Positions 19,960 through 31,025 of a stretch of DNA of 38,673 nucleotides are shown here, piece after piece (the stretch's first letter is position 1; each line of letters starts with the position of its first letter). A program made the position numbers and the translations under genes. The DNA is from Oscillospiraceae bacterium. GTDB lineage: Bacteria > Bacillota > Clostridia > Oscillospirales > Oscillospiraceae. Location of the stretch: positions 1 to 38,673 of the forward strand of contig JAFTUO010000006.1 of NCBI GenBank assembly GCA_017466215.1. The letters are read 5' to 3'. The notes below the pieces were generated by a model, which did no database searches, was not told where the DNA came from, and worked only from the letters and a program-made list of their open reading frames with translations.

Positions 19960-20106
19960 CCATGGCTGAGGTCGCGGTGTTCATCAGTACTGCTTTGGTT
20001 TGGCAATTGCCGGAGCAGGAAAGGGGAGACCGCCGAAGGGTGCATTGATGCCAAGCAATGCACGCTGGGCCTGCGCAGAATATGCGCAGGACTGCCGTCC
20101 GTATGG
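19960..20106 (+). ncRNA. Lysine riboswitch (L box) aptamer
   Basis: The leader of lysA carries the conserved L-box elements in order: GAGGTCGCG, AGTA, GGGGAGACCGCCGAAGG, the hairpin GTGCATTG/CAATGCAC, GCTGGGC, the hairpin CTGCGCA/TGCGCAG and GGACTGC. The P1 stem closes between CCATG (19960-19964) and the UAUGG at 20102-20106. Binding of lysine by this RNA would switch off lysA. Its presence before a decarboxylase gene confirms that the gene makes lysine. Confidence 0.9.
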
Positions 20107-20119
20107 ATGGAGCGCAGAT

Positions 20120-20173
20120 CAGGGGAATGCAGATGCTATGCCCTGTGTCGCTCAGACACGGGGATTTTTATTT
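20120..20173 (+). terminator. Riboswitch expression platform: terminator with alternative antiterminator
   Basis: The terminator stem CCCTGTGTC (20141-20149) pairs with GACACGGGG (20155-20163, one G-U), followed by ATTTTTATTT. The 5' arm of that stem can instead pair with CAGGG (20120-20124), using CCCTG (20141-20145), to form an antiterminator. This layout fits lysine-induced premature termination. Confidence 0.82.
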
Positions 20174-20192
20174 ATCAAAAGGGATGATCACT

Positions 20193-21461
20193 ATGAAAAA
20201 GACACCGTTCTTAACATTGGAAACTGCCCGCGCCATCGCCAGCGAGATTCCTACGCCGTTTCACGTATATGACGAGGCCGGCATCCGTGCCAACGCCCGG
20301 GCGTTGAAGCAGGCGTTTTCCTGGAATCCTGGTTTCCGGGAGTATTTTGCGGTTAAGGCCACCCCCAATCCCCATATCATCAAGCTCCTCCACGAGGAAG
20401 GCTGCGGCTGCGACTGTGCCACCTATACGGAGCTGCTGCTGGCTGAGGGTGTGGGCATTACCGGCCACGACGTGATGTTCTCTTCCAATGTTACTCCGGA
20501 AAAGGATATGCTGAAGGCGCTGGAGATGGGCGCTTACATCAATCTGGACGATGCCACCTATGTGGAATTCTTAGAGCGGCTGACAGATGGTAAAGTGCCC
20601 GAGACGGTGTGCCTGCGGTATAATCCCGGCGGCTCTTTCAGCCTGAGCAACACCATTATGGATATGCCCAGCGATGCCAAGTACGGAATGACCGAGGATC
20701 AGATGGCCGGCGCGATTTCCCGGCTGATGCAGTTGGGCACCAAGCACTTCGGCGTCCACGCATTCCTGGCCTCCAACACCACCACCAACGAGTATTATCC
20801 CGAGCTGGCAGCCAAGCTGTTCCGGCTGGTCGTGCGGCTGCACAACGCCACCGGCGCGCACTTCTCCTTTGTCAATCTGTCCGGCGGCATCGGTGTGGAT
20901 TATCGCCCCGAGCAGCCCAAGTGCGACATTGCCGTCATCGGCGAGGGCGTACATATGCGCTATGACCAGATCCTTGTGCCCGCCGGTATGGGCGACGTGG
21001 CCATCTTTACAGAGCTGGGCCGGTTTATGCTGGCACCTTACGGACACCTGATCTCCACCGTACTGCACAAGAAACACATCTATCGGGAATATGTGGGCCT
21101 GGATGCCTGCGCTTCCGATCTGATGCGGCCTGCGATGTACGGTGCGTATCACCATATCACCGTGCTGGGCAAGGAAAATGAGATCCTGGACCACGTGTAC
21201 GATGTTACCGGCGGCCTGTGCGAAAACAACGATAAGTTCGCCATCGAGCGCAGTCTGCCCCGGATCAAGGTGGGCGATATCCTGGCCATTCACGATACCG
21301 GCGCCCACGGCCACGCTATGGGCTACAACTACAACGGCAAGCTCCGCTCTGCCGAAGTCCTGCTGAAGGAGGACGGCAGCTTCCAGCTGATCCGCCGCGC
21401 AGAAACACCCAAGGATTACTTCGCCACATTGGAAGGCTTCGGTTTCGATTTTAATTGCTGA
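20193..21461 (+). CDS. lysA: Diaminopimelate decarboxylase
   Basis: LysA converts meso-diaminopimelate to L-lysine, the last step of lysine synthesis, with PLP. The 422 residues have an alanine-racemase-type barrel with the PLP lysine K55 in YFAVKATPNP, the EEGCGCDCATYTEL segment, GVHAFLAS, NLSGGIGVDY, and the C-terminal beta domain with the active-site GLCENNDKFA motif and AIHDTGAHGHAMGYNYNG. ATG 20193 was chosen because it follows the riboswitch terminator with an AAGGG site; the frame stays open further upstream only through the riboswitch. Regulation is by the lysine riboswitch in front. Confidence 0.95.
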   Translation: MKKTPFLTLETARAIASEIPTPFHVYDEAGIRANARALKQAFSWNPGFREYFAVKATPNPHIIKLLHEEGCGCDCATYTELLLAEGVGITGHDVMFSSNVTPEKDMLKALEMGAYINLDDATYVEFLERLTDGKVPETVCLRYNPGGSFSLSNTIMDMPSDAKYGMTEDQMAGAISRLMQLGTKHFGVHAFLASNTTTNEYYPELAAKLFRLVVRLHNATGAHFSFVNLSGGIGVDYRPEQPKCDIAVIGEGVHMRYDQILVPAGMGDVAIFTELGRFMLAPYGHLISTVLHKKHIYREYVGLDACASDLMRPAMYGAYHHITVLGKENEILDHVYDVTGGLCENNDKFAIERSLPRIKVGDILAIHDTGAHGHAMGYNYNGKLRSAEVLLKEDGSFQLIRRAETPKDYFATLEGFGFDFNC

Positions 21462-22024: not shown

Positions 22025-22066
22025 ACCGCACTCCGATCTACACATCGGGGTGCGGTTACTTTTTTC
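22025..22066 (+). terminator. Rho-independent terminator after the CBS-domain gene
   Basis: ACCGCACTCCGAT (22025-22037) pairs with ATCGGGGTGCGGT (22044-22056), followed by TACTTTTTT. Confidence 0.88.
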
Positions 22067-22086: not shown

Positions 22087-22115
22087 TTGATTTATTCACT
22101 ATTTAAGGGTATAAT
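22087..22115 (+). promoter_or_regulatory. Promoter of the transglutaminase/dlt-like operon
   Basis: TTGATT (22087-22092), a 17-bp spacer and TATAAT (22110-22115). It is the only strong promoter seen before the gene series that ends at 30604. Confidence 0.7.
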
Positions 22116-22217: not shown

Positions 22218-23495
22218 ATGAACTACTATTCTGACAATCAAAGAAGTAAAAAGCAGCGCAGAAAACAGCGCACAGGTCTTAAGGTACTGATCGGCATTTT
22301 GTCCGCGGTGCTGCTGATCCTGGTGCTGGTGCTGCTGTTTGGCGAAAAGAAAATATCTCTCCACCCGGAACTGATGATGGAGGCCGGCGGCGCATTTCCT
22401 GCACCTGAGAGCTTCCTGGCAGAGAAGACCGATAAGCAGATCGCTTACGGCAACACCTCTGCAGTCAAGCCCAATGTGCCCGGCGTTTACGATGTTATGT
22501 TAACCTGCGACGGCCAGGAATATGCTGCCAAGATCCGGGTTGTGGACACGGTTGCGCCGATGGCCACGCTGCAGGATATCAACGCACTGGGCAACATCCC
22601 CGAGGCTGAGGACTTTGTTGTCTCTGTCAGTGATGCCACGGAGGTTACCGCATCCTATCTGACCGAGCCGGATAAAAATAAGGACGGCGATCAGACCGTT
22701 ACCATCGTGCTGACCGACGCGGCTGGAAACACCACTCAGCTGCAGGCAAAGCTGACGCTGGTCATCGACCGGGAAGCCCCGGTGATCGCCGGCGTGGCGG
22801 ATAAGACCGTCTATCTTGGCGAATCTGTGTCTTATTTAAGCGGCGTTACCGTAACCGACGATATGGATCCGGAGCCTGCGCTGGATGTGGACAGAAGTGC
22901 GGTTGATCTTACGAAAGTCGGTGAATACACCGTAACCTATACCGCAACGGATGCTTCCGGCAACACGGCGGTGGTCTCCTGCACGCTGAAGGTGCTGGAG
23001 AAGAAGGACTACTATGTCCCTTACGAGACCATCTACCAGGAGGTGGATGCGATCCTCGCTGACATTATCCGCGACGATATGTCCTTGCAGAACAAGGTCT
23101 GGGCGGTGTATGTCTGGATCCGCACCAACTGCACCTATGTCAACCACTCCGACAAGGAGGACTGGATGCAGGCCGCCCACGTGATGATGACCGAGGGCAA
23201 GGGCGACTGCTTCAACTATTACGCCCTGTGCAAGCTGATGCTGGACCGGCTGGGTATTCAGAATATGGATGTGCGCAAGGTCAAGAATTATGAAGGCGAC
23301 AGCGACCATTACTGGAGTCTGGTCAGCCTGGACGGCGGCAACACCTGGTATCACGTGGACACCACCCCCAGAACAAATCCCGCCTCCTTCTGCCTGGTGA
23401 CGGATCAGTTTATGGATGAATATTCTGCTGCCAACGGCAACTGCTTCAACCGGGATAAGTCGCTGTACCCGGCCACACCGGAGGACGAGCTATGA
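22218..23495 (+). CDS. Membrane-anchored protein with Ig-like (DUF5011-type) repeats and a transglutaminase-like domain
   Basis: The 425 residues begin with a basic cytoplasmic stretch (SKKQRRKQR), a membrane helix (about 21-42), two or three Ig-like beta repeats (about 50-265; VTVTDDMDPEP and YTATDASGNTAVV are typical) and a C-terminal transglutaminase-fold domain. The cysteine-protease-like triad is visible: C331 in GKGDCFNYY, H364 in SDHYWSLV and D381 in WYHVDTTP. Such proteins act outside the cell as peptidases or in cross-linking or binding; the substrate is unknown. The gene opens the operon and its stop overlaps the racemase start by 4 bases (ATGA), so the two are translated together. 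Confidence 0.85.
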   Translation: MNYYSDNQRSKKQRRKQRTGLKVLIGILSAVLLILVLVLLFGEKKISLHPELMMEAGGAFPAPESFLAEKTDKQIAYGNTSAVKPNVPGVYDVMLTCDGQEYAAKIRVVDTVAPMATLQDINALGNIPEAEDFVVSVSDATEVTASYLTEPDKNKDGDQTVTIVLTDAAGNTTQLQAKLTLVIDREAPVIAGVADKTVYLGESVSYLSGVTVTDDMDPEPALDVDRSAVDLTKVGEYTVTYTATDASGNTAVVSCTLKVLEKKDYYVPYETIYQEVDAILADIIRDDMSLQNKVWAVYVWIRTNCTYVNHSDKEDWMQAAHVMMTEGKGDCFNYYALCKLMLDRLGIQNMDVRKVKNYEGDSDHYWSLVSLDGGNTWYHVDTTPRTNPASFCLVTDQFMDEYSAANGNCFNRDKSLYPATPEDEL

Positions 23496-24226
23496 GAAAG
23501 CCGGAGGAAAAAATGCTGGGTGTCATCGGTGGTCTTGGCCCGATGGCGACGGCCTATTTTATGGAGCTGGTCACGGATATGACCGACGCCGCCATTGATC
23601 AGGAGCATCTGCAGATGCTGGTCTACAGCGCGCCGTCCATCCCGGACCGCACCCGTTATATCTTAGACAATACCAAGGAAAATCCTTTGCCGGAAATGCT
23701 GCGCATCGGCAATGTACTGGCCCAGCAGGGGGCAGAGCGAATTGCCATTCCCTGCGTAACGGCCCACTATTTCTTTAAAGAATTGGAGTCCGGCATTCCC
23801 GTGCCGGTGATCAACGGCGTGGGAGAAACTGCGCTGCATCTGAAAAACCACGGCATCACCAAAGCCGGCATTATGGCCACCGACGGCACGATTTCTTCCA
23901 AGGTGTTCCACCGGGAGCTGGAAAAGCAGGGCATCGCGGCAGTTACGCCCACGGCAGCCCGGCAGGCAGATGTGATGCACCTGATCTTCGATGAAATCAA
24001 GGCAGGCAAGCCGGTAGATATGGCAAAATTCGACGCGGTTGCGGAGGAATTGCGCCGCTCTGGCGCCCAGGCCATCATCTTGGGCTGCACGGAGCTTTCC
24101 CTCATCAAGCGCGCCCACGCCATTGGCCCGGGATTTCTGGATGCGATGGAGATCCTTGCCCAGCAGGCGATCTTGCAGTGCGCAAAGCCGCTGAAAGAAC
24201 AGTATCGCAGTCTGATCTCAAAATAA
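23492..24226 (+). CDS. Aspartate/glutamate-family amino acid racemase
   Basis: This 244-residue PLP-independent racemase interconverts L- and D-amino acids with two cysteines. Both are present: C88 in IAIPCVTAHYF and C199 in IILGCTELSL. The N-terminal VIGGLGPMATAYF and NTKENPLPEM also fit. The first motif usually reads PCNTAH; here Asn is Val89, which may affect substrate or rate. The gene overlaps the transglutaminase gene by 4 bases and precedes the adenylation gene by 15 bases. This suggests that it supplies a D-amino acid for the surface modification encoded downstream. D-Asp and D-Glu are candidates; the sequence does not decide. Confidence 0.87.
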   Translation: MRKPEEKMLGVIGGLGPMATAYFMELVTDMTDAAIDQEHLQMLVYSAPSIPDRTRYILDNTKENPLPEMLRIGNVLAQQGAERIAIPCVTAHYFFKELESGIPVPVINGVGETALHLKNHGITKAGIMATDGTISSKVFHRELEKQGIAAVTPTAARQADVMHLIFDEIKAGKPVDMAKFDAVAEELRRSGAQAIILGCTELSLIKRAHAIGPGFLDAMEILAQQAILQCAKPLKEQYRSLISK

Positions 24227-24241
24227 AAGAGGTATTTGCTT

Positions 24242-25759
24242 ATGCAAACCAACATTTTGGAATATCTGGAGCAAACGGTCAAACGTGTGCCGGAAAAAGT
24301 GGCTTTCTTCAACGAAGAAACCGGCCTGACCTTCCGGCAGGTGTATGACCAGGCCCGCGCCATCGGTACATTCCTGCATCGGGAAGGGTTTTACAAGAAG
24401 CCGGTGGTGGTGTTTATGAAGAAGCACCCCAGAACTATCGCCGCCTTTTTCGGCGCGGTCTACGGCGGCAACTATTATGTTCCTCTGGACGAGGAGATGC
24501 CCCGTCACCGCATTGAGCTGATCTTCAAGACCTTAGAGCCCGGCGCAATGATCTGCGACGAGACCACGGAAGAAATGGCCCGGGAGATGGCTTTCGGCGG
24601 TAAGATCTATCGCTATGAGGATATCGCTTTCGGCGAAGCTGACGAGGAAGCTTTGGCGAAGGTTCGTGCCGAGCAGCTGGACATCGACCCCATCTATATC
24701 GTGTTCACCTCCGGCTCTACCGGCATTCCCAAGGGCGTTATGGCCTGCCATCGCTCGGTGCTGGATTATGTGGAGCAGCTGTGCGATGTGCTGAAATTTG
24801 ACGAAAATTCCGTATTCGGCAACCAGACGCCGCTGTATTTTGATGCCTGCCTGAAGGAGATCATCCCCACCATCAAATACGGCGCCAGCACCTGCCTGAT
24901 CCCCAAGCAGCTGTTTATGTTCCCCATTAAGCTGGTGGAATTCCTCAACGAGCATAAGATCAACACCCTTTGCTGGGTGGTGTCTGCGCTGACGATGATC
25001 TCGTCGTTCCGCACCTTTGAAAAGGTGAGACCCGAGTATCTTCACACCATCGCTTTTGCCAGCGAGGTGTTCCCCATCAAGCAGTTCAACCGCTGGAAAG
25101 AGGCGCTGCCGAGTGCCCGCTTTATCAACCTCTACGGCCCGACGGAGACCACCGGCATCTGCTGCTACTACGAGGTGGACCGGGAATTCGGTATGGATGA
25201 GAGCCTGCCCATCGGCAAGCCGTTCCGCAACACCCAGATCATCCTGCTGGACGATAACGATCAAGTGCCTGCTCCCGGCGAGCAGGGTGAGATCTGCATC
25301 CGCGGTACGCGGCTGACCCTGGGCTACTACTGCAACCCCGAAAAGACGGCAGAGGCCTTTGTGCAAAATCCGCTAAACAAGCTGTACCCTGAGCTGATCT
25401 ACCGCACCGGCGATCTTGCCAAGTACAACGACCGGGGTGAGCTGGTATTCCTGTCCCGGAAGGATTTCCAGATCAAGCATATGGGTCACCGCATCGAGCT
25501 GGGTGAGATCGAGGTCATCGTGAATATGCACCCGGATGTGGCATCGGCCTGCTGCGTGTTTGATGGCGTAAAGAAGAAGATCATCCTTTACTATGCAGGC
25601 ACGCTTCCTGCCGGCGATATGGCGGCCTATATCAAGGAGAAGCTGCCCCGGTATATGGTGCCCAATGTGATCCGTCAGCTGGAGGCAATGCCCCTGACAC
25701 CCAACGGAAAAATTGACCGCAACCTGCTGAAGCAGTGGTACGAGGAAAATAAACATTAA
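24242..25759 (+). CDS. Amino acid adenylation enzyme, DltA-like
   Basis: The 505-residue AMP-binding enzyme would activate an amino acid and load it on the carrier protein encoded next. Core motifs are A3 TSGSTGIPKG (156-165), the amino-group-binding Asp201 in YFDAC, A5 YGPTETTG (298-305), A7 YRTGDLAKY, A8 FQIKHMGHRIELGEIE and the A10 lysine K490 in NGKIDR. Asp201 argues for an alpha-amino acid. In DltA a Cys in the MCL motif marks D-alanine; aligned by eye, this position is Ile253 in SALTMISS. The substrate may therefore differ from D-Ala. ATG 24242 follows AGAGG. With carrier, MBOAT and SGNH genes behind it, this is a dlt-like operon. Confidence 0.88.
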   Translation: MQTNILEYLEQTVKRVPEKVAFFNEETGLTFRQVYDQARAIGTFLHREGFYKKPVVVFMKKHPRTIAAFFGAVYGGNYYVPLDEEMPRHRIELIFKTLEPGAMICDETTEEMAREMAFGGKIYRYEDIAFGEADEEALAKVRAEQLDIDPIYIVFTSGSTGIPKGVMACHRSVLDYVEQLCDVLKFDENSVFGNQTPLYFDACLKEIIPTIKYGASTCLIPKQLFMFPIKLVEFLNEHKINTLCWVVSALTMISSFRTFEKVRPEYLHTIAFASEVFPIKQFNRWKEALPSARFINLYGPTETTGICCYYEVDREFGMDESLPIGKPFRNTQIILLDDNDQVPAPGEQGEICIRGTRLTLGYYCNPEKTAEAFVQNPLNKLYPELIYRTGDLAKYNDRGELVFLSRKDFQIKHMGHRIELGEIEVIVNMHPDVASACCVFDGVKKKIILYYAGTLPAGDMAAYIKEKLPRYMVPNVIRQLEAMPLTPNGKIDRNLLKQWYEENKH

Positions 25760-25772
25760 AGGAGAAACCCTT

Positions 25773-26000
25773 ATGGAAAAACTCTTGGAGATTCTGGATG
25801 AGCTGCATCCGGATGTGGACTTTGAAACCGAAGAGCATCTGATCGACAATAAGATCCTGGACTCTTTCGATATCGTTACCATCGTGGCGGAGATCGACGC
25901 CGAGTACGATGTGGCGATCCCTGCGGAAGAGCTGATCCCGGAGAACTTCAACTCTGCCAAGGCGCTGTACGCCCTGGTGGAAAAGCTGATGGACGAATAA
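25773..26000 (+). CDS. Acyl/peptidyl carrier protein, DltC-like
   Basis: The 75-residue acidic carrier has the phosphopantetheine site Ser31 in ILDSFDIV. The LDSF sequence is the DltC form of the motif, rather than the LDSL of fatty-acid carriers. Three to four helices are expected. It would carry the amino acid as a thioester on 4'-phosphopantetheine from the adenylation enzyme to the membrane MBOAT protein. It lies 13 bases after the adenylation gene and one base before the MBOAT gene, with an AAAGGAG site before its own ATG. Confidence 0.92.
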   Translation: MEKLLEILDELHPDVDFETEEHLIDNKILDSFDIVTIVAEIDAEYDVAIPAEELIPENFNSAKALYALVEKLMDE

Positions 26001-26001
26001 T

Positions 26002-27570
26002 ATGCAAATTACATCGTTTGGCTTTTTGCTGTTTGCGGCGGTGCTGCTGGTGGCATATTACCTGATCCCCAAAAAGGGTCAGTGGATACTGCTGCTGGCG
26101 GCCAGCTACTGCTTCTATCTGTGGGCAGGAATTGAATATTTGGGCTTCATCCTGCTGACCACGGTGAGCACCTACGCTGCTACAATGGCGATGGCTGCAA
26201 ACCAGGAAAAGCAGGCGAAATACCTGGCGGAGAATAAGCAGACCCTTTCCAGAGAAGAACGCAAGGCCTATAAGGCAAAGGGTAAGCGCGTTAACCGTGT
26301 GTACCTGATTGCCTGCCTTGTGCTGAATTTTGGCATTTTGGCGGTCTGCAAGGCGCTGCTGATCGAGCCTTTCAAGGCGGCGGCCAGTGCAGGTACATTC
26401 TCGTTTTTGAGCTTGGGCCTGCCTCTGGGCATTTCTTTCTATATGTTCCAGAGTATGGGCTATGCGGTGGATGTGTATCGACAGACCTGCGCAGCGGAAA
26501 AGAATCCTTTGAAGCTGGCGCTGTTTGTTTCGTTCTTTCCCCAGCTGATCCAGGGTCCTATCAGCAAGTTTGGCCAGCTGGCACCCCAGCTGTACAGCCC
26601 CAAGAAATTTGACGGTAAGCAGCTGTCCTTCGGCCTGCAGCGGATGCTGTGGGGCTACTTCAAGAAGCTGGTCATCGCTGACCGGATCGCAGCAGCGGTC
26701 ATCACCCTGCGCGGCCCGGAGCATACCGGCGTGTCTTTCTTCATTCTCACGGTGTTCTACGCTGTGCAGATCTACGGTGACTTTACCGGCGGCATCGACG
26801 TAACGGTGGGTCTGGCCCAGGCGCTGGGCATCAAGCTGCCGGAGAATTTCATCCGCCCCTATTTTTCCAAGAACATCGCCGAATATTGGCGGCGCTGGCA
26901 TATCAGCCTGGGCGAGTGGATGAAAGATTACATTTTCTACCCCATTTCCGTCAGCCAGCCGATGCTGAAGCTGAGCAAAGCCGCCAGAAAAAATCTGGGT
27001 GCATTCGGAAAACGCCTGCCGGTGTATGTGGCATCCATCGCTACTTGGTTTGTTACCGGTATCTGGCACGGTCTGACCCCCAATTTTGTGCTGTGGGGTA
27101 TGCTCAACTGCTTCTTTATCGTGCTGTCGGAGGAATGCTCCGGGTTGTATGAAAAATTCCACGGCCGCTTCCACCTGAAAGAAAAGAAGTGGTACGGTGG
27201 TTTTGAGATTGCGCGGATGTTCATTCTGATGAATCTGATCCGCATCGTGGATCTGTTCCCCAATGTGGGGGACTATTTCTCCCGCATCGGCAGCTTGTTT
27301 ACTAAGTTCAATTTCCACGTTCTGTGGGATGGCACGATGATGAAGCTGGGCCTCACGGCGCTGGATTACATCATTTTGGCAGGCGGCATCGTGCTGATGT
27401 TCACCATCAGCCTGATCCAGGAGAAAAAGGGCAGCATCCGCGAGCTTCTGTGGCAGAAAAATCCTGTGGTGCGCTATGCCCTCATCTTTGCGCTGCTGGT
27501 GATTGTGCTGCTGATGGGCAACTATGGCGTGGGCTATAACGCCAGCGCATTTATCTATAACGCATTCTAG
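26002..27570 (+). CDS. MBOAT-family membrane acyltransferase, DltB/AlgI-like
   Basis: The 522 residues form a polytopic membrane protein, with several helices from residue 3 on and a charged loop near residues 70-95. Family hallmarks are SFYMFQSMGYAVDVYRQ, SFFPQLIQGPI, the motif EYWRRWHISLGEW (H300) and the catalytic His356 in TGIWHGLTPN. MBOAT enzymes of this branch move acyl groups from inside to exopolymers outside (alginate O-acetylation or teichoic-acid D-alanylation). Next to a carrier protein, amino-acyl transfer is the natural reading. The start abuts the carrier stop, so translation is probably coupled. DltB and AlgI cannot be separated by eye, but the context favours a DltB role. 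Confidence 0.93.
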   Translation: MQITSFGFLLFAAVLLVAYYLIPKKGQWILLLAASYCFYLWAGIEYLGFILLTTVSTYAATMAMAANQEKQAKYLAENKQTLSREERKAYKAKGKRVNRVYLIACLVLNFGILAVCKALLIEPFKAAASAGTFSFLSLGLPLGISFYMFQSMGYAVDVYRQTCAAEKNPLKLALFVSFFPQLIQGPISKFGQLAPQLYSPKKFDGKQLSFGLQRMLWGYFKKLVIADRIAAAVITLRGPEHTGVSFFILTVFYAVQIYGDFTGGIDVTVGLAQALGIKLPENFIRPYFSKNIAEYWRRWHISLGEWMKDYIFYPISVSQPMLKLSKAARKNLGAFGKRLPVYVASIATWFVTGIWHGLTPNFVLWGMLNCFFIVLSEECSGLYEKFHGRFHLKEKKWYGGFEIARMFILMNLIRIVDLFPNVGDYFSRIGSLFTKFNFHVLWDGTMMKLGLTALDYIILAGGIVLMFTISLIQEKKGSIRELLWQKNPVVRYALIFALLVIVLLMGNYGVGYNASAFIYNAF

Positions 27571-27579
27571 GAGGCAGAC

Positions 27580-28641
27580 GTGAAAAAGAAATCTATTTTT
27601 ACACTGTGTGCCTGCCTGGCGGTGTGCCTGGCTCTTTTGTGGCTGCTGCAGGCGCTGCTGATGCCCAAATATATGGGAAGCGTGAAAGAAGGCGCGCTGA
27701 TCGGCGAATACTATGATAACGCCGGCAATAACGATGTGGTTTTCATCGGAGACTGCGAGGTGTACGAGAATTTCTCTCCCATTACAATGTGGGAAGAATA
27801 CGGCATCACATCCATTATCCGGGGCAGTCCCCAGCAGCTCATCTGGCAGTCGTACTACCTGATGGAAGAAACATTTCAGTACGAAACGCCCAAGGTGATG
27901 GTGTTCAATGTGCTGTCGATGAAGTACGACACCCCCCAGAGTACCGGCGACCAGACCCAGCGCGAGGCCTATAACCGGATGACGCTGGACGGTATGCGCT
28001 GGTCGGGATCCAAGTGGAACTCCATCCAGGCATCTATGACGGAAGAAGAGAAGCAGTGGCAGGGCCAGTGGAGCTATCTGTTTCCCCTGCTGCGCTACCA
28101 CGACCGTTGGTCCCAGCTGACCGGAGAGGATTTTCAGTATCTATTCAAAAAAGATCAGGTGTCTGACAACGGCTACCTGATGCAGACCGGCGTGAAGCCC
28201 TTTGAGGACGAGCACATTCAGCCCCCGCTGGTGGACTACACCTTCGGCGAGAACAGCTACTACTATCTGGATAAGATGGTCGAGCTGTGCAAGCAGCACG
28301 GCACGCAGCTGGTGCTGATCAAAGCGCCGTCGCTGTACCCCGTATGGTGGGATGAGTGGGATCAGCAGATGGTAGAGTATGCTGAAAAGCACGGTCTGCT
28401 GTACGTGAACCTGCTGGAAAAGCAGGAGGAAATTGGCATCGACTGGTCGCAAGATACCTACGATGCGGGCCTGCACCTGAATGTCTACGGCGCGGAAAAG
28501 CTGGCATCCTATTTCGGTAAGATCCTGGTTGAGGAATGCGGCGTTGCGGATCACCGCGGCGATGCAGAAATCAGCACAGTTTGGGCCGAAAAGGTCAAGA
28601 CCTATTACCAGCGCAAGGAAGCCTTGCAGGCCCAATCATAA
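27580..28641 (+). CDS. SGNH-type membrane-anchored protein, DltD-like partner of the MBOAT
   Basis: The 353 residues have an N-terminal membrane helix (about 6-28) and an extracellular SGNH-hydrolase-like domain. Block I reads VVFIGDCEVYENFSP: the GDS nucleophile Ser is replaced by Cys59. The C-terminal block is D295-AGL-H299 followed by LN, fitting the catalytic Asp/His. DltD, AlgX and DHHW proteins are the analogous partners of other MBOAT systems. GTG 27580 is the start, with an AGGAGG site. It lies 9 bases after the MBOAT gene. It may be a cysteine-nucleophile acyltransferase or hydrolase, or have lost activity. The family is not one I can name precisely. Confidence 0.8.
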   Translation: MKKKSIFTLCACLAVCLALLWLLQALLMPKYMGSVKEGALIGEYYDNAGNNDVVFIGDCEVYENFSPITMWEEYGITSIIRGSPQQLIWQSYYLMEETFQYETPKVMVFNVLSMKYDTPQSTGDQTQREAYNRMTLDGMRWSGSKWNSIQASMTEEEKQWQGQWSYLFPLLRYHDRWSQLTGEDFQYLFKKDQVSDNGYLMQTGVKPFEDEHIQPPLVDYTFGENSYYYLDKMVELCKQHGTQLVLIKAPSLYPVWWDEWDQQMVEYAEKHGLLYVNLLEKQEEIGIDWSQDTYDAGLHLNVYGAEKLASYFGKILVEECGVADHRGDAEISTVWAEKVKTYYQRKEALQAQS

Positions 28642-28659
28642 ACCCGGAGGAAAGAAAAA

Positions 28660-29181
28660 ATGAAAAGATTGATCGCTTTTTTTGGAATTTTGTGTATGGT
28701 AGTGGGCTTTGCCGCCTGTTCCACACCGCAGACCACGGATATCAAGGGCACGACCCCCAATGTGGGAAATCCCGGCGACCCCAACGCCTATTATTTTAAC
28801 TACAAGGGTACGGATATTCGCCTCAACGGTGATATGGAGGTCGTCCTGAATGCTCTGGGCGAGCCCAAGAATTACACCGAGGAGACCAGCTGTGCATTCG
28901 AGGGTCTGGACAAGACCTACACCTACGACAGCTTCGTGATTCAGACCTACCCCAAGGGCGAAAAGGACTACGTCTATGCGTTCTGGTTCCTGGACGATCT
29001 GGTCAAGACCCCGGAGGGCGTCAAGATCGGCGATACCCAGGCGGCGGTGGAAGCCGCCTATGGCGCAGAGGGCTATAACGGCCGCAATGCCTATATCCTC
29101 AAAAAGGATACCTATTCGATGACCATCATTCAGAATGACGGCGCTGTCAGCTCCATTCAGTACACCATTACCATCGGTTGA
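28660..29181 (+). CDS. Putative lipoprotein
   Basis: The 173 residues start with a lipoprotein signal (MKRLIAFFGILCMVVGFAAC, with the lipidated Cys at 20). The mature part has two similar halves with LNALGEPKNY and GVKIGDTQAAVEAAYG, reminiscent of BamE/SmpA-like or beta-lactamase-inhibitor-like small domains with the G-D-x(n)-V-x-x-x-Y-G pattern. The precise family is not recognised. It is the fifth gene of the dlt-like set, 18 bases after the SGNH gene with a GGAGG site, so it is probably a surface accessory to the modification system. It shares one base with the next gene (TGATG). Confidence 0.75.
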   Translation: MKRLIAFFGILCMVVGFAACSTPQTTDIKGTTPNVGNPGDPNAYYFNYKGTDIRLNGDMEVVLNALGEPKNYTEETSCAFEGLDKTYTYDSFVIQTYPKGEKDYVYAFWFLDDLVKTPEGVKIGDTQAAVEAAYGAEGYNGRNAYILKKDTYSMTIIQNDGAVSSIQYTITIG

Positions 29182-29636
29182 TGGATAGGGCAGAGCAAGC
29201 TGCGCAGCTGTTCCTGCGAGGCTACAATTGTGCCCAGGCTGTGGCTGTCGCATTTTCTGATCTGACGGGTTTAAGCCCGGAGCTTTCTGCGAAAATGGCG
29301 TCGTCCTTTGGCGGCGGTATGGGCAGACTCCGCGAGGTCTGCGGCGCGGTCAGCGGAATGCTGCTGGTTACGAGCCTTTTGTACGGCTATGACCGGCCGG
29401 AGGACGACCAGGGGAAGAAGGAACTGTACAAGCTGGTACAGAGCCTTGCGGAGCAATTTCGCCAGAAAAACGGCAGTATCATCTGCCGGGAGCTGCTGAA
29501 AAATCCGCCCAGCGACCCCAATCCCAGCCCCAGAACAGAGGAATACTACCGCCAGCGCCCTTGCGCCGCAATGGTGTATACGGCGGCGCAGATCCTGGAT
29601 GCATATATTGCAGAGCATCCGGTGGAGGGCGAATGA
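29181..29636 (+). CDS. C_GCAxxG_C_C family protein
   Basis: The 151 residues contain the four conserved cysteines of this family: C17 in YNCAQAV, C54 in REVCGAVSG after the SSFGGGMG segment, C102 in IICREL and C128 in RPCAAMV. It is a soluble cytoplasmic protein, probably redox- or metal-related; the function is unknown. The start overlaps the lipoprotein stop by one base. A TTG one codon earlier is in frame but less likely. Its own stop overlaps the next gene (ATGA), so it belongs to the same transcript. Confidence 0.85.
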   Translation: MDRAEQAAQLFLRGYNCAQAVAVAFSDLTGLSPELSAKMASSFGGGMGRLREVCGAVSGMLLVTSLLYGYDRPEDDQGKKELYKLVQSLAEQFRQKNGSIICRELLKNPPSDPNPSPRTEEYYRQRPCAAMVYTAAQILDAYIAEHPVEGE

Positions 29637-30604
29637 TGGATGTAGTAGCGCTTGGTGAGCTTCTGATCGACTTTACCTGCCTGCACGCAGATACGGATGG
29701 CTACCCCACGATGGCGGCCCATCCCGGCGGCGCGCCGGCCAATTTTCTGGCGGCGTTGGCAAAGCTGGGAGCAAAGACGGCTCTGCTGGGCAAGGTGGGC
29801 AAGGATGCCTTCGGGAATATGCTGATCGGCACGCTGAATAACGCCGGGATCGACACCCAGGGCATCGTGCAGGCGGATGACGTGTTTACCACGCTGGCAT
29901 TCGTAACGCTGGATGCGCGGGGAGAGAGAGAATTTTCCTTCGCCAGAAAGCCCGGCGCGGATAAGAGCCTGCGCTTTGATGAATTGCGGCTGGATCTGAT
30001 CGACGGGGCAAAGGTATTCCATTTTGGCACGCTGTCGCTGACAGATGAGCCTGCCCGCTCAGCCACCCGGCAGGCGGTGGCCTATGCCCGGGAAAAGGGC
30101 AAGCTGATCACCTTTGATCCTAACCTGCGAAAGCCGCTGTGGCCCACGCTGGAGGATGCGAAAGAGCAGATGCTGTGGGGCTTAAAGCAGGCGGACGTGG
30201 TGAAGATCAGCGATGAAGAGGTGGAATTTCTCTTCGGCCTGAGTCCTGCGGAGGGCGCGGATTATATTTTGGCGCACTTCGGCGTGAAGCTGGTGTTTGT
30301 TACCTGCGGCGCGCAAGGGTGCATCTGCAAAAACGCTGCGGCGGAGGGCTTTGTGCCCGCACCGGCGGGAATTTCTGTGGTGGATACCACCGGCGCAGGC
30401 GATATTTTCGGCGGCAGCGCGGTCTGGAAATTGCTGACCGTGGGCAAATTGCCGGAGGAGCTGAACGCGCAGCAGCTGCGCGAAATTGCCACTTTTGCCT
30501 GCACCGCGGCAAGCCTTTCCACCACGCGACCCGGCGGAATCTCCAGTGTACCGGAAAAAGCGTCGATTTTGGAAAAAATCAGAGAACAGAGTGCCGATTT
30601 ATAA
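29633..30604 (+). CDS. PfkB-family carbohydrate kinase (fructokinase-like)
   Basis: The 323-residue ribokinase-fold enzyme phosphorylates a sugar with ATP. Seen are the N-terminal ALGELLIDF, the sugar-binding GGAPANFLAALAKLG, LGKVGKDAFG, FDPNLRKPLW and the C-terminal DTTGAGDIFGGSAV with catalytic Asp257. The pattern fits fructokinases, but substrate is a guess. The ATG at 29633 has a GGAGGG site and overlaps the preceding stop by 4 bases; ATG 29636 is an alternative. A terminator overlaps its stop codon. It ends the long operon that begins at the transglutaminase gene, with no obvious link to amino-acid transfer. Confidence 0.9.
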   Translation: MMDVVALGELLIDFTCLHADTDGYPTMAAHPGGAPANFLAALAKLGAKTALLGKVGKDAFGNMLIGTLNNAGIDTQGIVQADDVFTTLAFVTLDARGEREFSFARKPGADKSLRFDELRLDLIDGAKVFHFGTLSLTDEPARSATRQAVAYAREKGKLITFDPNLRKPLWPTLEDAKEQMLWGLKQADVVKISDEEVEFLFGLSPAEGADYILAHFGVKLVFVTCGAQGCICKNAAAEGFVPAPAGISVVDTTGAGDIFGGSAVWKLLTVGKLPEELNAQQLREIATFACTAASLSTTRPGGISSVPEKASILEKIREQSADL

Positions 30605-30711: not shown

Positions 30712-30786
30712 TGGGATGTCGCCAAGCGGTAAGGCACCAGACTTTGACTCTGGCATTCGTAGGTTCAAATCCTGCCATCCCAGCCA
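30712..30786 (+). tRNA. tRNA-Gln (anticodon TTG)
   Basis: TGGGATG pairs with CATCCCA for the acceptor stem. The anticodon stem CCAGA/TCTGG carries the loop CTTTGAC with anticodon TTG, and the T arm is AGGTTCAAATCCT. Discriminator G and CCA are encoded. Confidence 0.97.
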
Positions 30787-30806
30787 ACTCAACCTCTGAA
30801 AGCGGC

Positions 30807-30929
30807 ATATTGGCGGAGAATCGGTCTGTTGCTCCGGCTGTGCGCCTTGAAATGCTTGGAATACATCCAGTATGCCTGCGCTTTCAAGTCTTCACCCGTA
30901 ACAACATCCCGGATTCTCCATACAATATT
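30807..30929 (+). other. Long imperfect inverted repeat between the two tRNA genes
   Basis: The spacer folds back on itself. ATATTG and GGAGAATC (30807-30812 and 30815-30822) pair with CAATAT and GATTCTCC (30924-30929 and 30913-30920). Inside, CTTGAAA (30846-30852) pairs with TTTCAAG (30882-30888), and GGAATAC pairs with GTATGCC near the tip (30858-30876). I see no gene in it. It may be a processed spacer RNA or a mobile palindromic element. Confidence 0.55.
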
Positions 30930-30950
30930 CCACTTTCGAGGTTTCGTATG

Positions 30951-31025
30951 ATCCGCTAGCTCAGTTGGCAGAGCAACTGCCTTTTAAGCAGTGGGTCCGG
31001 AGTTCGAATCTCCGGCGGGTCACCA
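30951..31025 (+). tRNA. tRNA-Lys (anticodon TTT)
   Basis: The acceptor GATCCGC pairs with GCGGGTC (one T-G). The D arm GCTCAGTTGGCAGAGC and the anticodon stem ACTGC/GCAGT with loop CTTTTAA give anticodon TTT, and the T arm is CCGGAGTTCGAATCTCCGG. Discriminator A and CCA are encoded. Confidence 0.97.

Follow-up and report, generated by a model that had tools for sequence, protein, structure and literature searches.

The DNA analysed here (the window) is a stretch of 38,673 nucleotides from an Oscillospiraceae bacterium, contig JAFTUO010000006.1. It carries a cassette of seven genes. These encode a transglutaminase-like protein (TG), a racemase of the pyridoxal phosphate (PLP)-independent Asp/Glu family (RAC), a stand-alone amino-acid adenylation enzyme (ADE), a 75-residue carrier (ACP), an MBOAT acyltransferase, an SGNH-like extracytoplasmic protein and a lipoprotein (LP). 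On balance, and with slightly better than even confidence, the cassette is read as a carrier-fed system of extracytoplasmic aminoacyl transfer which combines Dlt with PatA/PatB and runs from RAC to TG and LP. Judged from its sequence, it appears to be a novel form of envelope acylation by an MBOAT-SGNH pair, with a carrier as donor, an acyl shuttle fused to the acyltransferase and a cysteine as putative nucleophile. It most probably delivers an acidic D-amino acid made by the racemase. A preliminary description had recognised the Dlt-like gene order; it had passed over the shuttle motif at the MBOAT C-terminus, the replacement of serine by cysteine in the SGNH protein, and sister cassettes whose supply enzymes differ.

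Recurrence of the gene set

Related loci were collected from a scan of named genomes (at least 80 loci, 583 confirmed relatives) and from further genome searches. Type a takes in loci whose adenylation pocket code is DA[KR]C, to which the odd row L055 was added; it comprises 116 loci, the window excluded. L036, L038 and L040 were dropped as copies of L057, L061 and L064; some near-copies remain, and the adenylation sequences of L080/L232, L102/L211 and L076/L078 are identical. Genes were counted as present within eight genes on the same strand; those cut by contig ends score as absent.

The gene set recurs beyond chance. Among the 116 type-a loci, TG is linked in 107, ACP in 106, MBOAT in 110, SGNH in 97, RAC in 76 and LP in 68; the complete order TG-RAC-ADE-ACP-MBOAT-SGNH-LP is found in 28. 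RAC lies directly before ADE in 71 of its 76 loci, two genes upstream in three and five genes downstream in two. It stays with the set in rearranged loci (RAC-TG-ADE; ADE-ACP-MBOAT-AsnB-TG-RAC-SGNH-LP; SGNH-MBOAT-ACP-RAC-ADE), which argues that the linkage is functional and not merely an inherited order. Racemase-linked cassettes span eight GTDB family codes. The racemase as a strain-specific passenger was thereby rejected: the preliminary description had proposed a search for the neighbourhood across Clostridia and had allowed that the racemase might adjoin the set in this strain only, which proved false. Searches of open-licence papers found no title describing the cassette. In one variant (L109, L111, L114, L115, L121, L122 and L125) three consecutive transglutaminase-like genes lie upstream of ADE; these are racemase-free, Saccharofermentans-type cassettes.

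The MBOAT and its fused acyl-shuttle motif

The MBOAT of the window ends in FIYNAF, a match to the FxYxxF motif. The motif is present at the C-terminus of 98 of 104 complete type-a open reading frames (ORFs), and the remaining six have FIYG. In a set of 129 MBOATs scoring above 400 bits, which covers type a, the PLP and GNAT-like sister cassettes and the window, Tyr519 of the motif is kept in 128; His356 and His300 are both kept in all 129. The predicted phosphopantetheine site of the carrier, Ser31, lies within LDSFD, and DS[FLI]D is found in 105 of the 106 linked carriers.

Passages of a published account of such systems describe FxYxxF as the bearer of an acyl-tyrosine (PMC12148441). They set out a split: in Dlt, the donor is a carrier and the motif sits on the separate DltX; in PatA and others, the motif is fused to the MBOAT, the donor is acyl-CoA and there is no carrier (PMC12148441). 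The cassette crosses this split. Unlike the carrier-free PatA-type layout, 106 of the 116 type-a loci have a carrier gene. Because it joins the carrier donor of Dlt with the fused motif of the PatA type, the cassette is, by the scheme of those passages, a predicted hybrid of the two. PatA/PatB O-acetylation and related MBOAT-SGNH systems likewise pair the fused motif with a separate SGNH protein. The cassette differs from PatA/PatB in its predicted donor, a carrier-bound amino acid and not acetyl-CoA, and in the cysteine at the SGNH nucleophile position.

A cysteine SGNH protein, and sister cassettes

Block I of the SGNH protein reads GDCE[VIL] in place of GDS. The alignment has 53 rows (the window and 52 of 67 complete proteins from named loci, with L083 and some near-copies omitted); Cys59, His299 and Asn301 are invariant, as is Cys237. 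Cysteine stands at the nucleophile position in all 95 type-a SGNH proteins scoring above 300 bits and in 96 of 97 at any score. The exception, which counts against the proposed cysteine chemistry, is L083, a distant SGNH-like protein with serine and 24% identity. In a profile-profile alignment with the serine-type SGNH proteins of the PLP cassettes (309 columns, E 2.3e-51), Cys59 falls on the serine of GDSE, and GLHLN on GDHLN. The Pfam GDSL family is matched at E <= 0.05 by 50 of the 53 rows; the window protein is below the cut-off. Run as a profile against the PDB, the SGNH alignment gave no relative and one chance-like match (E 0.1). By these alignments Cys59 occupies the SGNH nucleophile position, where it would accept the acyl group as a thioester.

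There are two kinds of sister cassette. In the PLP kind (n=11: L050, L051, L052, L174, L177-L180, L182, L186 and L190) a PLP decarboxylase-like gene lies between ADE and ACP, and the pocket code begins with DVK; the SGNH protein, where found, is serine-type (9/9), and the MBOAT tail is [IM]YA.F. In the GNAT kind (n=6: L049, L173, L175, L181, L185 and L188) a GNAT gene lies between the adenylation and carrier genes, and the code ends with DK. A quick adenylation tree puts the PLP group in one supported clade and type a in another. TG is found in none of eleven PLP and none of nine GNAT-like cassettes, and LP in one of eleven and none of nine. Since the sisters are without TG and nearly without LP, and the PLP sisters have serine in SGNH, the sequences indicate that TG, the cysteine SGNH protein and LP co-occur as a group, and that the supply enzyme tracks the pocket.

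The TG protein combines Ig-like domains with a transglutaminase-like domain and has a predicted membrane anchor. Its residues Cys331, His364 and Asp381 do not vary across the 107 aligned rows, of which the window is one. LP has no confident Pfam or PDB match. Its Cys78 is kept in 36 of 36 aligned rows (the window and 35 of 42) and its Cys20 in 35. These conserved residues permit another arrangement, judged unlikely and somewhat more so than the change of amino acid considered below: Cys59 would be a disulfide or metal ligand, and the SGNH scaffold would present the acyl-tyrosine to TG, whose cysteine would make the transfer. In its favour, SGNH also has the invariant Cys237 and LP the invariant Cys78, and TG, with its intact triad, is missing from both kinds of sister. 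However, Cys59 falls exactly on the serine of the PLP sister cassettes and the rest of the active site is kept, which argues for Cys59 as the nucleophile.

Two side observations concern the relatives. The gene after MBOAT in L049 has a polysaccharide deacetylase domain. L191-L194 and L197 have two tandem adenylation genes; these are followed by a carrier and by an MBOAT that is distant and lacks the shuttle motif.

Separation from the classical dlt operon

The core of the cassette follows the logic of D-alanylation, as the preliminary description held. In the Dlt pathway (DltA-DltC-DltB-DltX-DltD), as is predicted for the cassette, an adenylation enzyme loads a small carrier with a phosphopantetheine serine, and an MBOAT and an SGNH partner export the aminoacyl group. 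The comparison further shows that this is not a classical dlt operon. ADE scores 264.6 against a cut-off of 559.85 on the DltA model TIGR01734; MBOAT scores 140.8 against 375 on the DltB model TIGR04091; ACP is below both DltC cut-offs (33.3 vs 68 and 18.7 vs 52.35). At E <= 1e-5, DltD (PF04914) was not found in any of the 27 cassette genomes searched, while B. subtilis and L. lactis controls were positive, and profile alignment detects no homology of SGNH to canonical DltD over the active site. The search for a separate DltX microprotein covered the cassette only; there it is absent, since no gap exceeds 18 bases and the motif sits on the MBOAT. Seven canonical clostridial dlt loci served as controls: none of their DltA proteins has lysine at pocket position 239, and none of their DltB tails ends in FxYxxF. 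The cassette thus differs from Dlt in its shuttle on the MBOAT, its want of a DltD homologue, its cysteine in place of serine, its pocket Lys239, and its additional racemase, transglutaminase-like protein and lipoprotein. A classical dlt operon was ruled out on the model scores, the absence of DltD and the pocket.

Ordinary D-alanylation, in which ADE would load D-Ala from the usual Ala racemase and RAC would be a passenger, is very improbable. The parts list is Dlt-like and DltA counts among the better of the named matches; against this stand the low scores on all three Dlt models, the missing DltD, a pocket unlike that of any of the seven clostridial DltA proteins, and the linkage of RAC in 76 of 116 loci.

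Of 292 genomes sampled from the class, the window's own included, 58 have an adenylation relative at E <= 1e-90; every cassette type is counted here, including some in which no MBOAT was recognised. At least 58% identity is reached in 31 of the 58, again with the window's own. DltD was found in 8 of 196 genomes. By these counts, surface aminoacylation in gut and rumen Clostridia may usually depend on this cassette rather than on Dlt.

The predicted amino acid

RAC scores 217 on the Asp racemase model TIGR00035 (cut-off 93.1), and its best PDB match is the Asp racemase 1jfl (E 1.8e-46); glutamate racemase models are far lower, at 24 bits. Cys88 is kept in 76 of 77 rows and Cys199 in all 77. In the alignment with 1jfl, Arg53 and Lys170 are the counterparts of Arg48 and Lys164 of PhAspR, and both are kept in 77 of 77 rows. 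The PhAspR residues presumably have a functional role, for which a literature search found no paper.

Read over ten positions, the pocket code of the window ADE is DAKCAALGIK, with Lys205 at position 239; the commonest code among relatives is DAKCAGLGMK. The FD and YGPTE motifs served as anchors for positions 235-239 and 322-331, while positions 278, 299 and 301 follow GrsA numbering and are less sure. Prior to code-based selection, 99 of 101 rows have Lys239; the others are L081, with arginine, and the odd row L055. It is also present in 11 of 11 PLP and 6 of 6 GNAT cassettes. Residue 301 was not used as a DltA-type selector of D-amino acids, because the alignment of canonical DltA near 299-301 is unsure.

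Neighbouring genes bear on the substrate. A glutamine-dependent asparagine synthetase is encoded inside four of the 116 cassettes, in three lineages (L082, L089, L110 and L212). Weak matches in Saccharofermentans-type loci and L201 (24-30% identity, or 30 bits) resemble the glutaminase half of amidophosphoribosyltransferase and were excluded from the count. A comparable grouping is described for L. lactis: racD is found together with aslA, which encodes the D-Asp ligase, and D-Asp is amidated by AsnH (PMC4155827). As in that cross-bridge pathway, the cassette has an Asp-type racemase beside an activating enzyme and, in some loci, an asparagine synthetase-type enzyme; unlike it, the cassette uses adenylation, a carrier and an MBOAT, whereas AslA is a cytoplasmic ATP-grasp ligase which acts on peptidoglycan precursors. 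In one clade, a D-Tyr-tRNA deacylase gene comes after SGNH at 12 loci; at L093 an ORF on the opposite strand intervenes. It does not follow SGNH in five Pseudobutyrivibrio loci (L092, L094, L095, L097 and L098). Taken together, the racemase, pocket, asparagine synthetase and deacylase evidence favours D-Asp as the predicted substrate. The comparison with characterised enzymes that the preliminary description had called for accordingly places RAC nearest to Asp racemases, and sets the ADE pocket apart from clostridial DltA.

Several points weigh against this assignment. The Asn of the CNTAH motif, after the first RAC cysteine, is replaced by Ile, Val or Met in 75 of 77 rows, so the substrate of RAC may differ from Asp; Asp racemase and the cysteate racemase CuyB share the two-cysteine motifs of RAC and differ from it in this residue. 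The window RAC also exceeds the cut-off of the CuyB model NF052483 (198.4 vs 190). All 11 RACs tested pass that equivalog cut-off of 190 bits, and five of them score higher on it than on TIGR00035. The deacylase linkage is confined to one clade. Lys239 within the 116 loci is not independent evidence, since type a was defined by the code.

The CuyB scores raise the prospect that the substrate is cysteate, a sulfonated analogue of Asp. In that case RAC would act as a cysteate racemase, and D-cysteate would decorate the surface. Lys239 could hold the sulfonate. Even so, six of the 11 RACs score higher on TIGR00035, the asparagine synthetase of four loci fits Asp and not cysteate, and no further gene family recurs next to the cassette beyond 11 of 51 lineages; cysteate is highly improbable.

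Another acidic amino acid (Glu of either hand, or L-Asp) could be handled by the same machine, with the racemase recycling or balancing pools. This is unlikely, although it has some points in its favour. Lys239 and Ala236 resemble a Glu code, DAKDLGVVDK, for which a literature search found no paper. D-Glu made by MurI is available in peptidoglycan makers. Many loci, as described below, have no racemase in the genome. A dedicated racemase would however be redundant for D-Glu, and RAC is nearest to Asp racemases and far from the glutamate racemase models.

Loci without a racemase

A difficulty for the D-configuration lies in the 40 of 116 loci with no linked racemase. For 35 of these the genome was searched (E <= 1e-10): ten have a racemase elsewhere and 25 have none. 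Many of these genomes are incomplete assemblies. One racemase-negative genome, G015, belongs to the window's own genus. On these counts the D-configuration may not be general to all loci. The preliminary description had proposed an exopolymer aminoacylation system fed by the racemase. Its Dlt-like logic and the placement of the racemase stand; the D-configuration and an exopolymer as acceptor are only presumed.

Pocket residues tend to differ where the genome has no racemase, which is suggestive only. The table behind this omits L048, L077, L089 and L096 (contig-end cuts, genomes not searched) and short or odd ADE ORFs. Residue 331 is Met or Ile in 83 of 85 racemase-positive rows (linked or unlinked) and in 10 of 25 negative rows; residue 302 gives the same table. 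Residue 237 is Cys or Tyr in 77 of 85 positive and 4 of 25 negative rows. The tree offers seven independent pairs, of which three to five shift the same way and one or none the opposite way. Two matters reduce the weight of this correlation: the positions were chosen after the data had been seen, and the sign test (median p 0.25, 0.25 and 0.125) cannot reach 0.05.

Two racemase-free loci have an unusual gene directly upstream of ADE. In L078 (4529-7873) and L085 (4586-7858), an ORF of about 1,100 residues joins a PLP fold-III decarboxylase-like domain with a transglutaminase-like domain.

Acceptor

To survey the flanks, ORFs of at least 90 residues within ten genes of the cassette were clustered in 51 lineages. 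No family beyond the seven occurs in more than 11 of the 51, and the most frequent one lies on either strand at varying distance; a polymer gene that travels with the cassette was ruled out on this basis. Of 28 cassette genomes, 13 have glycerophosphate polymerase genes. The window's genome is one of the 13, and its acceptor may be a teichoic acid; a teichoic acid made by these polymerases is not a general acceptor, because so few of the genomes have them.

The aminoacyl group might instead pass to a small molecule, lipid or peptide. This is quite improbable. The flank survey and the polymerase counts would suit it, and cousins with two adenylation genes or no recognised MBOAT resemble natural-product loci. 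On the other hand, the MBOAT-SGNH systems named in passages of PMC12148441 act on envelope polymers, and the hydrophobic N-terminal stretch of TG and the lipobox of LP place both proteins at the membrane.

Proposed pathway

In the proposed pathway, RAC would supply an acidic D-amino acid, D-Asp being the likeliest. ADE would adenylate it and load the phosphopantetheine on Ser31 of ACP, as expected of its family. At the inner face, MBOAT would then pick up the aminoacyl thioester and use His356 to esterify Tyr519 in its own tail; the motif is observed, and the tyrosine chemistry is proposed by analogy with PatA and DltX. The tail would swing to SGNH, where Cys59 would take the group as a thioester and not as the usual serine ester. 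From there the group would pass to an envelope acceptor; a thioester could serve amine and hydroxyl acceptors alike. TG, with its Cys-His-Asp triad, and LP, with its invariant second cysteine, would act outside on the product or the acceptor.

A broader proposal is possible but doubtful. Carrier-bound amino acid, MBOAT tyrosine and cysteine SGNH protein would define a separate class of envelope acylation, widespread in Clostridia, in which the thioester, TG and LP form amide bonds, not ester bonds, and put D-aspartyl groups on the wall; the PLP and GNAT sisters would use this route to deliver other amino acids tailored in the cytoplasm. Speculatively, the cassette could set wall charge, the response to host peptides and immune recognition. 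A natural and conserved change of serine to cysteine in an SGNH transferase also offers a test case for how the choice of nucleophile determines the acceptor.

Transcription unit and neighbouring genes

The genome of the window is a 1.56-Mb draft in 93 contigs and is 83% complete. The seven genes lie on one strand (Table 1), separated from TG to LP by -4, 15, 13, 1, 9 and 18 bases, in agreement with the preliminary description. TG, RAC, ADE, ACP and MBOAT pass curated cut-offs in Pfam and NCBIfam scans; LP has no family above cut-off in either. An in-frame TTG at 24236 is an alternative to the ATG start of ADE. A terminator-like hairpin directly precedes a candidate sigma-70-like promoter upstream of TG. 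A single promoter for the unit, as described previously, is plausible from this site; the scan as a whole found nine promoter-like sites against 7.1 +/- 2.3 in shuffles, which is no overall excess, and two weaker sites lie on the plus strand within the unit.

Table 1. Features of the cassette and its surroundings in the window
Feature	Position	Strand	Evidence or remark
Diaminopimelate decarboxylase-like gene	20058-21461		280 bits, below LysA cut-off 297.9
Terminator-like hairpin	22025-22056		
Candidate promoter, TTGATT-17-TATAAT	22087-22115	+	Consensus scan, 10/12 positions
TG, transglutaminase-like	22218-23495	+	PF01841, 36.5 bits vs cut-off 23
RAC, PLP-independent Asp/Glu racemase family	23492-24226	+	PF01177, 141 bits
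ADE, stand-alone amino-acid adenylation enzyme	24242-25759	+	TIGR01733, 324.6 bits vs cut-off 317.4
ACP, carrier	25773-26000	+	PF00550, 20.9 vs cut-off 20.8
MBOAT acyltransferase	26002-27570	+	PF03062, 61.4 bits; conserved His356, His300
MBOAT acyl-shuttle motif FIYNAF (F517-F522, Tyr519)	27550-27567	+	FxYxxF match
SGNH-like extracytoplasmic protein	27580-28641	+	GTG start; weak match, 20.0 bits vs cut-off 32.9
SGNH Cys59 codon	27754-27756	+	Nucleophile position; His299 and Asn301 also in protein
LP, lipoprotein	28660-29181	+	Lipobox FAAC, Cys20; second Cys78 in TSCAFEGL
C_GCAxxG and PfkB genes, probable continuation of unit	29178-30604		Overlapping start and stop codons
PfkB kinase gene	29633-30604		Overlaps C_GCAxxG gene
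tRNA-Gln(ttg) and tRNA-Lys(ttt) genes	30712-31025		Downstream of unit

The gene for a redox-type C_GCAxxG protein overlaps the stop codon of LP and is itself overlapped by the gene for the PfkB sugar kinase. Because of these overlaps, both genes are probably co-transcribed with the cassette, and the unit would then continue past 29181. Neither gene is conserved with the cassette; the C_GCAxxG gene adjoins one of 100 related cassettes. Just upstream of the cassette lies the diaminopimelate decarboxylase-like gene, which is followed by a CBS-domain gene; the two tRNA genes lie on the other side.

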